Assembly: GCF_013371215.1 (NCBI RefSeq)
Contig: NZ_JABWMH010000004.1
Location: 62,001-126,000 of the forward strand
Length of the DNA stretch: 64,000 nt
Direction of reading: 5' to 3'
DNA from: Parasphingorhabdus flavimaris
GTDB lineage: Bacteria; Pseudomonadota; Alphaproteobacteria; Sphingomonadales; Sphingomonadaceae
This document shows, in pieces, positions 4,290 to 6,689 of this stretch; positions within the stretch are counted from its first letter, which is position 1; the number at the start of each line of letters is the position of its first letter. The notes under the pieces were generated by a model. It did no database searches, was not told the DNA's origin, and saw only the letters and a list, made by a program, of their open reading frames with translations. The position numbers and the translations under genes are program-made.

Positions 4290-5339
4290 TCAATCGAACA
4301 GCTCTCCGTCCACTTCTTTACCGGCAGGCGGCGTCAGGCCGAGATGCTTCCACCCGCGATCGTTGAGCGTCCGGCCTCGGGCCGTCCGGGCGATCAGGCC
4401 GAGCTGGATCAGATAGGGCTCGATCACTTCCTCCACCGTGTCCCGCGGTTCGGAAAGACCAGCCGCCAGCGTTTCCACGCCGACCGGGCCGCCCTTGTAG
4501 ACATCCGCAATCATATGGAGATAGCGCCGGTCCATCGCGTCGAGGCCGATGCTGTCGACTTCCAGACGAACCAGCGATTCATCGGCGATTGTCCGGTCGA
4601 CAAGCCGGGTCCCCGCGACATTGGCAAAATCCCTTACCCGGCGGAGCAGGCGGCCGGCAATCCGCGGCGTACCCCGCGCGCGGCGCGCCACTTCGGTCGC
4701 GCCGTCGGGCGCAATATCGAGATCAAGCAGGCGCGCGGCGCGGTGGACAACCAGTTCCAGCTCTTCGGTCGTATAGAAATTGAGCCGCACCGGAATACCG
4801 AAACGGTCGCGCAAAGGTGTGGTCAGCAGACCCTGGCGGGTCGTCGCTCCGATCAAGGTGAAGGCGGGCAAGTCGATCCGCACGCTACGCGCCGACGGTC
4901 CCTCGCCGATGATCAGGTCGAGCGCGCGGTCTTCCATCGCCGGATAGAGCACTTCCTCGACCACCGGATTGAGCCGGTGGATTTCGTCGATAAACAGGAC
5001 ATCGCCCTCTTCGAGATTGGTCAGCAGCGCCGCGAGATCGCCAGACTTTGCGATAACCGGCCCCGAAGTGGCGCGGAAACCGACGCCCAGTTCCCGCGCA
5101 ATGATCTGCGCCAGCGTGGTCTTGCCCAAACCGGGAGGTCCAAAGAACAGCACATGATCCAGCGCCTCGCTGCGCCCCTTGGCCGCCTCGATAAACACCC
5201 GGAGATTGCCACGCGCCGCCTCCTGCCCGATAAATTCGTCGAGCGTTTTCGGGCGCAGGGCGGCATCGATGTCCTCCGGCTGGCGCTGCGGCGTAAGATG
5301 CGGATTGTCAGTAACGGCCAATACCCCTGAATGCGTCAC
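4290..5339 (-). CDS. ruvB: Holliday junction branch-migration ATPase RuvB
   Basis: RuvB is the AAA+ motor that, with RuvA, drives branch migration of Holliday junctions. The protein is 349 residues from the outermost start. It shows the family opening [11 protein letters not shown], Walker [10 protein letters not shown] near 68, Walker B FIDEIHRL near 115, sensor GATTRQG near 165, the arginine-finger region LRDRFG near 178 and a C-terminal winged helix. The start is uncertain. The GTG at 5339-5337 lies inside a palindromic repeat copy (5334-5362) and has no spaced Shine-Dalgarno. A TTG at 5321 would give a 343-residue protein beginning [11 protein letters not shown], more like relatives. It is separated from ruvA by a repeat-bounded GIY-YIG gene on the other strand. 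Confidence 0.95.
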
Positions 5340-5362
5340 CCTGAACTTGTTTCAGGGTCCAT
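5334..5362 (+). repeat. Family A palindrome, left copy
   Basis: A 29-base copy built on ACCCTGAACTTGTTTCAGGGT (arms at 5338-5358 around a short loop). It is identical, in inverted orientation, to the copy at 5771-5799. It touches the 5' end of ruvB and lies just before the GIY-YIG gene, so the two copies frame that gene like terminal inverted repeats. Confidence 0.9.
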
Positions 5363-5391
5363 GGTGCGTCCATATACCGCCCGTGCGACAA

Positions 5392-5697
5392 GTGAAACAA
5401 CCATGCGTCTACATACTCGCCAGCCAGCCCCACGGTACGTTGTACATCGGCGTAACGTCGAACCTGATCCAGCGCCTTCACCAGCACCGCAACCAACTGG
5501 CGCCCGGATATACATCTAAATATGCTGTATATCGCCTTGTCCGCTTTGAAATGTTCGACGACATGACCAGCGCGATCACACGAGAGAAACAACTGAAAAA
5601 CTGGCATCGTCCTTGGAAGATCAATCTGATTGAATCGGAAAACCCGCAATGGGTTGATCTCGCGGTCAATCTTGGGTTGCCGCCTATTAGTGGCTGA
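5392..5697 (+). CDS. Small GIY-YIG nuclease, repeat-flanked
   Basis: A 101-residue single-domain GIY-YIG endonuclease-like protein. The two beta-strands VYILAS (near 6) and TLYIGVT (near 16), the conserved Arg in LIQRLHQH (R28) and the catalytic Glu in REKQLKNW (E65) are all present. Family members cut DNA using a Tyr/Arg/Glu site with a metal ion; the cellular role of this stand-alone form is unknown. Start: GTG 5392 begins VKQPCVYI; another in-frame GTG at 5383 is possible; neither has a good Shine-Dalgarno. The gene is antisense to the ruv operon and is bracketed by identical inverted family A palindromes (5334-5362 and 5771-5799), plus a degenerate internal copy at 5712-5735. This suggests a mobile unit. 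Confidence 0.88.
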   Translation: MKQPCVYILASQPHGTLYIGVTSNLIQRLHQHRNQLAPGYTSKYAVYRLVRFEMFDDMTSAITREKQLKNWHRPWKINLIESENPQWVDLAVNLGLPPISG

Positions 5698-5711
5698 CTT
5701 CACACAACTGC

Positions 5712-5735
5712 CACGCTGAACTCGTTTCAGTATCC
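5712..5735 (+). repeat. Family A palindrome, degenerate copy
   Basis: CGCTGAACTCGTTTCAGTATCC resembles the family A core in the same orientation as the left copy, with several substitutions (for example CGCTGAA for CCCTGAA). It lies 15 bases after the GIY-YIG stop and inside the unit bounded by the two perfect copies. Confidence 0.75.
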
Positions 5736-5770
5736 ACCGCGAACCAATCACAGCCTGTGAGCGCGGAGAA

Positions 5771-5799
5771 ATGGACCCTGAAACAAGTTCAGGGTGACG
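5771..5799 (-). repeat. Family A palindrome, right inverted copy
   Basis: The 29 bases are the exact reverse complement of 5334-5362. Together they delimit about 466 bases that contain the GIY-YIG gene, lying between the stop of ruvA (5838) and the start of ruvB. Confidence 0.9.
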
Positions 5800-5837: not shown

Positions 5838-6443
5838 TCACCGCGCCGCCTTCTTCAACGCCAGCCGCACCAGCGCGTCCAGTGTCGCTCCATCCCCGAC
5901 TTCGGCATCCGCCGCAGCAACCGCCGCGCTCGCATCCGCCGGTTTAAAGCCGAGATTCTGCAGCGCGCTGACCGCATCGGCGCTGTTGTTCGATGGCGCG
6001 TGGACTACGCCGCCTGCTCCAATAATCGGATCGGTGGCAATGCCGCCAACCTTGTCCTTCAATTCATTGACAATCCGCAACGCCAGTTTCGGACCAACCC
6101 CGTTTGCCCGCGAAACCATCGCCTTGTCGCCCATTGCTATGGCCCGCGAAATTTCGCCCGGTTCCAGTGCCGACAATATCGCCAGCGCCACCTTGCCTCC
6201 GACACCCTGCACCGAGATCAGCAGCCGGAACCAGTCGCGCTCCGAGCCGCTGGCAAAGCCCATCAACCGCATGTCGGTCTCGCTGACCTGCATCTCGGTA
6301 TAGATGGTCGCCCCGTCGCCCTTGCCGCCAATCGCCCCGATGGTCCGCGACGAGCAGAAAACCAGATAGCCGACGCCGTTCACATCGAGCACGATATTGT
6401 CCGTGCCGATTTCGTCGATTGTGCCGGTGAGTTTTGCGATCAT
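5838..6443 (-). CDS. ruvA: Holliday junction DNA helicase subunit RuvA
   Basis: RuvA binds four-way junctions as a tetramer and loads RuvB. The 201-residue protein starts MIAKLTGTI (OB-fold domain I with DVNGVGYLV near 20). The helix-hairpin-helix blocks [12 protein letters not shown] (near 80) and [12 protein letters not shown] (near 113) follow, then a linker rich in Ala/Asn and the C-terminal UBA-like domain III ([12 protein letters not shown] near 160) that contacts RuvB. It is expected to be co-transcribed with ruvC and ruvB, but both adjoining gaps are filled with palindromic repeats. Confidence 0.96.
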
Positions 6444-6529: not shown

Positions 6530-6601
6530 CTCGCACGAAGACACGAAGGCACCAAGTTGATGGTGCTTTTGTATCTTCGTGACTTTGTGTCTTCGTGCGA
6601 T
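6530..6601. repeat. Family C inverted repeat, copy 1
   Basis: Left arm CTCGCACGAAGACACGAAGG and right arm CTTTGTGTCTTCGTGCGAT can pair imperfectly across about 30 bases. A related unit occurs at 61388-61480. It lies directly beside a family B element (6606-6677) in the ruvC-ruvA gap. Confidence 0.8.
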
Positions 6602-6605
6602 AAAT

Positions 6606-6677
6606 CCGTTCGTGCTGAGCTTGTCGAAATACGGATTCGCGCGCTCCAAGGTCCTTCGACAAGCTCAGGACAACCGG
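6606..6677. repeat. Family B palindromic element, copy B1
   Basis: Left arm CCGTTCGTGCTGAGCTTGTC and right arm CCTTCGACAAGCTCAGGAC flank about 30 bases of spacer; total about 72 bases. The same two-armed unit recurs at 28141-28211, 31980-32051 and, in frame in a gene, at 55876-55948. Confidence 0.88.
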
Positions 6678-6689
6678 TGTTTTGCCCGG

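Follow-up and report, generated by a model that had tools for sequence, protein, structure and literature searches.

A GIY-YIG nuclease gene bounded by CGTC-tagged REPs as a candidate minimal mobile element

Introduction

The CGTC superfamily of palindromic REPs was defined by Di Nocera et al. 2013 (PMC3733652), and in the available part of that paper some of its members are equated with the dRS3 repeats of Neisseria and with RPE-4 and RPE-6 of Rickettsia. CGTC REPs are described there from five phyla and from all orders of the alphaproteobacteria, and they "apparently lack a dedicated transposase". As far as the accessible text goes, no tyrosine transposase was found flanked by CGTC units, other transposase classes gave few fortuitous associations, and "GIY" occurs nowhere. 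The available portions of PMC12306157, PMC1564403 and PMC9465073 likewise contain no link between GIY-YIG proteins and REPs. Among the literature matches listed we found no published link of this kind; preprints and most subscription papers were outside the scope of the search, so an earlier publication is possible.

GIY-YIG nucleases are best known in other settings. The homing endonucleases of this fold carry NUMOD or another added DNA-binding domain. To our knowledge, UPF0213, Slx1 and UvrC are cellular proteins that are not bounded by REPs. Here we describe a GIY-YIG gene that lies between CGTC-tagged REPs, and we ask how often and where this arrangement recurs.

Results

The element between ruvA and ruvB

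We analysed a stretch of 64,000 nucleotides from Parasphingorhabdus flavimaris (contig NZ_JABWMH010000004.1, positions 62,001 to 126,000), hereafter the window. A sequence-only reading had noticed a perfect 29-bp inverted repeat, each arm itself a hairpin, enclosing a 101-residue GIY-YIG gene oriented against the ruv operon. Arm alignment and folding bore out the repeat, and the Pfam match (PF01541, 62.4 bits) and the strands bore out the gene. The features are as follows.

5334..5362, + strand: left CGTC-tagged REP of family A, tag outward; perfect 29-nt inverted repeat, tagged hairpin with CCAT tail
5392..5697, + strand: GIY-YIG nuclease gene, 101 aa, GTG start (PF01541 match, conserved residues, dN/dS and structure model, see below)
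5711..5799, - strand: REPIN, two inverted REPs 3' of the GIY-YIG gene; predicted long hairpin, same layout without a gene at loci L003-L005
about 5711..5737, + strand: diverged REP forming the inner arm of the REPIN, by sequence reading
5771..5799, - strand: outer REP arm with outward tag, reverse-complementary to 5334-5362 without mismatch
4290..5339, - strand: ruvB, adjoining host gene, with an N-terminus unlike that of element-free members of the genus
5838..6443, - strand: ruvA, host gene on the opposite side of the element

The element as a whole covers 466 bp (5334-5799). Its arms are 29 nt each, 100% complementary and separated by 408 nt, and each was predicted to fold into an 8-bp stem with a 5-nt loop, leaving an unpaired CGTC at one end and a CCAT tail at the opposite end. 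The arms therefore have the tag of CGTC REPs (unpaired CGTC, or TGTC or CCTC, at one end) and the shape given in the accessible text of PMC3733652, which is a stem of 8-9 bp, a loop of 4-5 nt and a CCA tail. The 19-nt repeat core, searched at up to three mismatches, has two matches in the window; shuffled sequence had 0.00 on average and 0 at most. The GIY-YIG gene runs opposite to both ruvB and ruvA. The GTG at which the ruvB ORF opens (a putative start) is located in the left repeat, which had been described as touching the ruvB start codon. As in insertion sequences, terminal inverted repeats bound a discrete unit, both in the window and in the copies of another genus, g21. No target-site duplication was obvious at the sites compared, which were too diverged or occupied by REPs.

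A degenerate third copy of the repeat had also been reported inside the element. The copy is there, but it is the inner arm of the REPIN at 5711-5799 rather than a separate repeat, because L003, L004 and L005 of this genome show this two-armed structure with no gene attached. The entire REPIN is predicted to fold into a single long hairpin. Two other repeats lie beyond ruvA. One is a pair of a different palindromic repeat (CTTCGACAAGCTCAG type) at 6605-6683 in the ruvA-ruvC gap, present in some and absent from other relatives in the genus; the other, at about 6530-6600, is a long palindrome of a further family (GCACGAAGACACGAAGGC...) that is seen in relatives too.

The GIY-YIG protein

PF01541 is the sole Pfam domain in the 101 aa of the window protein. 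The Pfam search detected no NUMOD or other added DNA-binding domain in it and no known transposase domain, HUH Y1 included, and an NCBIfam search assigned it to no family. Residues Y7, Y18, R28, H32, E65 and N84 are invariant across 32 aligned rows, seven other rows, one of which proved to contain a stop, having been excluded. We take these to be the catalytic Tyr, Tyr, Arg, His/Tyr, Glu and Asn of GIY-YIG enzymes. Median dN/dS was about 0.07 among the six ruvA-ruvB orthologues, for which two of 15 pairs were saturated and gave no value and dS was high in several others, and it was 0.06 among the g21 copies. We conclude that the nuclease gene is under purifying selection. Some GIY copies contain stops or a frameshift.

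A structure model of the window protein had a pLDDT of 91.8. Foldseek, run on this model, placed UPF0213, Slx1 and UvrC GIY-YIG structures nearest, with UPF0213 and Slx1 at the top, in matches that were weak (E above 1e-3, TM about 0.4-0.6). The top 17 of 158 matches all belong to the GIY-YIG superfamily, and the Slx1 structure entries bear titles on branched-DNA processing.

REP families and GIY genes in the same genome

In a genome-wide search, which the sequence-only reading had suggested as a check, the REP core occurred at 34 places at up to three mismatches, compared with one for a reversed control pattern, and ten inverted REP pairs 29-51 bp apart could be read by eye from the genome match list. 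The repeats thus occur as CGTC REPs do, in many copies and as inverted dimers, and the dispersed copies match the REPs flanking the GIY gene, as is expected of a REP-RAYT-type pair.

The genome contains six PF01541 matches, one of which (L036) lies in a 648-aa frame. Their surroundings differ. The window element (L032) is bounded by REP family A, and L033, whose protein is 53% identical to the window protein, sits between two REPINs of its own family B. At L034, copies of a third stem stand on both sides, some of them degenerate and in the same orientation, and no inverted pair was listed there; a fourth palindrome flanks L031 on either side, and L035 has a palindrome at one side only. The genome also has two Y1 transposase matches, of which L037 is strong and the other is interrupted by two internal stops. 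The 9 kb or so around L037 contain no match to the REP core. A hairpin of other sequence stands just upstream of the L037 gene (about 1409-1469).

Inverted REPs recur around GIY genes

From a search of named genomes we took the best 80 of 532 loci, and dropping three without flanks left 77; the set is biased to sphingomonads because best matches were chosen. An inverted repeat across the GIY gene with a score of at least 14 was present at 59/77 loci and in 7/716 control windows from the same loci. At a score of at least 16 the counts were 54/77 and 1/716. That single control window is itself a gene-less TGTC-tagged REPIN (L112, near 1050).

An even draw of 249 Pseudomonadota genomes yielded a GIY gene in 71. 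We examined 106 matches and dropped two, leaving 104 testable loci of this GIY subfamily, and a further 29 matches stayed outside the count (25 that were fragmentary or weak, one located at the edge of a contig, two from the window's own genome and one full-length). Scores of at least 16 were found at 71/104 GIY loci compared with 3/1630 control windows, and scores of at least 20 at 62/104 compared with 0/1630; the remaining 33/104 GIY loci scored below 16. Isolated small ORFs from the same regions never had an inverted pair at a score of at least 16 (0/85).

We also counted hairpins by their tag. Hairpins tagged.GTC[AG] and matched by a copy on the opposite side accompanied 68/108 GIY genes and 1/587 control windows. 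By the loosest tally of one-sided tagged hairpins, 90/108 GIY genes and 347/587 controls were positive. A stricter tag, [CT]GTCA[CT], does discriminate on one side (70/108 compared with 34/587). Because one-sided hairpins are mostly uninformative, as the control count of the loosest tally indicates, we relied only on two-sided counts. In the best-scoring 30 Sphingomonadales loci, the window's own included, an inverted repeat pair was present in all 30, and the left repeat started 54-71 nt before the GIY domain in 29 of them, allowing for a 10-nt script offset. We conclude that the REP-GIY-REP arrangement recurs at near-fixed spacing.

GIY copies also occur on plasmid records. The GIY protein matched 31 records in a plasmid collection, of which we read seven, and in six of these the gene lies between inverted CGTC-type repeats (seen by eye for L371, by scan for the others). 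They include perfect 31 bp repeats around GIY on Novosphingobium aromaticivorans pNL2, inverted pairs in a Sinorhizobium meliloti and two Sphingobium records, and a REPIN-GIY-REPIN unit between sufB and sufC on Azospirillum lipoferum plasmid AZO_p3 (L368, 1371-1883). For Planktothrix (L369) the repeat scan gave no inverted pair, and TGTC-tagged copies were visible by eye on both sides. In a Neisseria gonorrhoeae record, another of the six, the GIY gene stands with dRS3-type clusters. One N. gonorrhoeae record, NZ_CP119140.1, is filed as a plasmid and is chromosome-sized at 2.17 Mb.

REPs co-vary with the nuclease

A second GIY subfamily (L031-type) had a repeat pair in 6/17 loci at a score of at least 18, compared with 0/201 controls, and at a score of at least 16 the counts were 6 and 1; its palindromes are different ones, and some begin like the CCTC variant. 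A third subfamily (L035-type) had a pair in 0/16 loci even at a score of 11. In these tests one locus without flanks (L314) was dropped, and the own-genome locus L301 scored 9 because the query span included one REP.

We compared protein with REP distances over 68 GIY-REP pairs, possibly including a few chance hairpins, and obtained a correlation of r=0.427. Permuting REPs among the GIY genes inside one genome holds host ancestry fixed, and such permutations gave a mean of 0.379 (sd 0.019) and reached the observed value in 19/5000 cases. For genomes with two or more pairs the correlation was 0.481, compared with 0.364 (sd 0.040) after permutation, and it was reached in 1/5000. The within-genome effect is modest. 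One genome can hold different REP families, each with its own GIY gene: L228 and L192, in different genomes, share an identical 28-nt REP, and L186, a further GIY gene of the L228 genome, has a different one. Taken together, we conclude that REP type is paired with the nuclease by lineage.

REP copy number was compared in 197 Sphingomonadales genomes, scored as GIY-positive at E up to 1e-25. At least ten REP copies were present in 30/105 GIY-positive and 0/92 GIY-negative genomes (p=9.6e-10, in tests that ignore kinship), so that all 30 genomes with at least ten copies carry a GIY gene. For the closest GIY type (E up to 1e-45), 28/28 genomes had at least two REP copies compared with 45/169 others, again ignoring kinship and with the caution that low thresholds partly count the REPs bounding the GIY gene itself. 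One to nine REP copies are retained in 22/92 GIY-less genomes, as expected if the GIY gene can be lost. The link between repeat and GIY gene on which the sequence-only reading turned is therefore strong genome-wide, in the two-sided counts of the even draw and in copy number, and repeat and protein co-vary.

Gain and loss at orthologous sites

We compared the ruvA-ruvB gap within the window's genus. The GIY gene was present in 6/28 readable gaps and REP-flanked in all six; a GIY gene between ruvA and ruvB without flanking repeats, which would have spoken for a chance link, did not occur in the genus. Gene-less REPINs occupy the gap in four relatives (L127, L128, L132 and L135), and by eye other CGTC-like REPs, two of them degenerate, lie there in seven relatives, so the gap repeatedly holds REPs of several families. 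Members of the genus that carry the element differ in the RuvB N-terminus from those that do not. At L126 an apparent remnant of the usual ruvB start lies upstream of the element.

In another genus, g21, copies are 86-91% identical and have common end points at the tag, with a unit of about 560-570 bp and ends of about 65-70 bp. In one genome, similarity between L215 and L250 and between L250 and L254 stops near the tagged ends, and between L215 and L254 it continues past the element ends. The pairs L221/L225 and L227/L231 resemble orthologous insertions with common flanks. L250 lies before mdh, in the ZapE-mdh gap; when 30 of 80 genomes with a match were sampled, 27 gaps were readable and the gene was present in one. 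L274, L292 and L298 have stretches in this gap that match both element ends, with no gene. The site of L033 in a relative, G022, holds REP fragments and a REPIN and no gene within the stretch read. The loop of an orthologous REPIN is exactly reverse-complemented between two close genomes (L256 in G022 compared with L033).

At a Sphingobium plasmid site, four aligned strains share a 381-bp unit, one of them with a one-base deletion in the gene. Five plasmids have the same site without the gene: two hold a lone REP, two hold other palindromes, and one holds nothing. Taken together, we conclude that the element is gained and lost at orthologous sites. The proposed comparison of empty sites thus succeeded for presence and absence within the genus and failed for a base-exact empty site. 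None with a target signature was found at the ruvA-ruvB, own L033 or ZapE-mdh gaps, in a gap scan of all three, or at the plasmid site; in the intergenic gaps this is because the DNA is too diverged.

Discussion

We infer that the stretch 5334-5799 is a copy of a minimal mobile unit of the form REP-GIY-REP and that its nuclease mobilises CGTC REPs; we consider this reading, with the cleavage and movement it implies, probable. Units of this kind measure about 380-570 bp across genomes. The GIY-YIG nuclease is likely to be the missing mobilisation partner of CGTC REPs, and the idea of a non-RAYT, GIY-YIG-based repeat mobilisation, raised when the window was first read, gains support from the pairing and from what the pairing suggests.

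A potential model is that the nuclease recognises the REP hairpin, or a cruciform, carrying the CGTC tag and nicks the extruded REP, after which host replication and repair would copy, move or rejoin the REP-bounded piece. GIY-YIG enzymes cut DNA by hydrolysis and are not known to form a covalent intermediate, so host enzymes would be needed for the copying or moving step. By analogy with RAYT systems, REPINs would be non-autonomous, MITE-like, gene-less derivatives; we read them in this way because their outward-tagged ends are identical in kind. The inverted REPIN loop would fit cruciform cutting and rejoining, and it also fits plain recombination between inverted repeats. More broadly, stand-alone GIY-YIG nucleases might be the engines of the whole CGTC superfamily, dRS3 and the Rickettsia RPEs included, and would then define a new class of mobile DNA, about 380-570 bp long and perhaps the smallest that is autonomous, that works by hairpin cutting and host repair, with no covalent transposase and with REPIN offspring. 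We regard the case for this wider proposal as evenly balanced.

Several other explanations could account for a nuclease gene between REPs. The gene could encode an enzyme that the host retains for processing REP hairpins, which would relieve blocks to replication or transcription, with REPs gathered around it and no mobilisation. Purifying selection, the usually low copy number per genome and a fold near Slx1 and UvrC all agree with such a role, but the presence and absence of the gene at orthologous sites, its occurrence on plasmid records, the several similar copies at different sites in one genome and the distinct REP families that each have their own GIY gene in one genome do not, and we consider this explanation unlikely. 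A homing-type spread, in which the nuclease cuts an element-free allele and double-strand-break repair copies REP-GIY-REP in, would make the REPs boundaries rather than substrates. The GIY-YIG fold is one used by homing endonucleases, the gene occupies 6/28 readable ruvA-ruvB gaps, and RuvB has a changed N-terminus, as if flanking DNA had been co-transferred. Homing alone, however, would not produce multi-site copies per genome and dispersed gene-less REPINs, and the protein has one Pfam domain and no NUMOD; we consider homing improbable.

The REPs could instead be moved in trans by a RAYT or another transposase, with the GIY gene as a passenger between two REPs. The own genome does encode a strong Y1 match, L037, and a second with two internal stops, but the REP core is missing from the roughly 9 kb around L037, the hairpin beside that gene is of other sequence, and the accessible text of PMC3733652 reports no CGTC-flanked tyrosine transposase and few fortuitous associations with other classes. 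On these grounds we rejected RAYT as the partner. A passenger would also leave unexplained the co-variation of GIY and REP and the recurring geometry, and movement in trans therefore seems very unlikely. Finally, intergenic DNA often contains REPs, and a small gene located there could end up beside them by chance; the ruvA-ruvB gap repeatedly carries several REP families, and one-sided tagged hairpins are frequent by chance. Such coincidence, or an intergenic hot-spot, was rejected on the control windows (71/104 GIY loci compared with 3/1630), on the small ORFs (0/85) and on the third GIY subfamily (0/16), and we give it almost no weight. We therefore favor the mobile REP-GIY-REP element.

If this reading is true, an extra nuclease class joins the short list of those thought to build dispersed repeat populations, and the presence of several unrelated REP families per genome would be explained in part, with one family per GIY lineage. 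Many genes annotated merely as "GIY-YIG nuclease family protein" would gain a function. The available part of PMC3733652 looked at transposases and left the mobiliser of CGTC REPs open; a GIY-YIG gene with matching ends provides a single testable candidate. The parts of this arrangement are known and the combination was not found in print; the association of the parts is strongly supported.

How, then, does the element compare with known systems? Like insertion sequences with their MITEs, it has inverted repeats at its ends and derivatives that lack the gene; it differs from them in that neither a known transposase domain nor a target-site duplication was seen, and in its length of about 380-570 bp. 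With UPF0213, Slx1 and UvrC the window protein has the GIY-YIG fold in common. With GIY-YIG homing endonucleases it shares the nuclease fold and a patchy, selfish-looking distribution, but here no NUMOD was found, and REP ends take the place of the intron or intein familiar from that group. The repeats themselves are like the CGTC superfamily, as far as the text of PMC3733652 was available, in tag, 8-9 bp stem, 4-5 nt loop, CCA tail and dimers; there, CGTC REPs have no transposase association, whereas here they flank a nuclease gene. The element also resembles REP-RAYT systems (TnpA-REP, REPtron) and their REPINs, which likewise consist of a small nuclease gene flanked by a dispersed palindrome family that occurs singly and as inverted pairs. 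In the element described here, however, the enzyme is a GIY-YIG nuclease rather than an HUH Y1 tyrosine enzyme, and the REPs belong to the CGTC rather than the GTAG superfamily.
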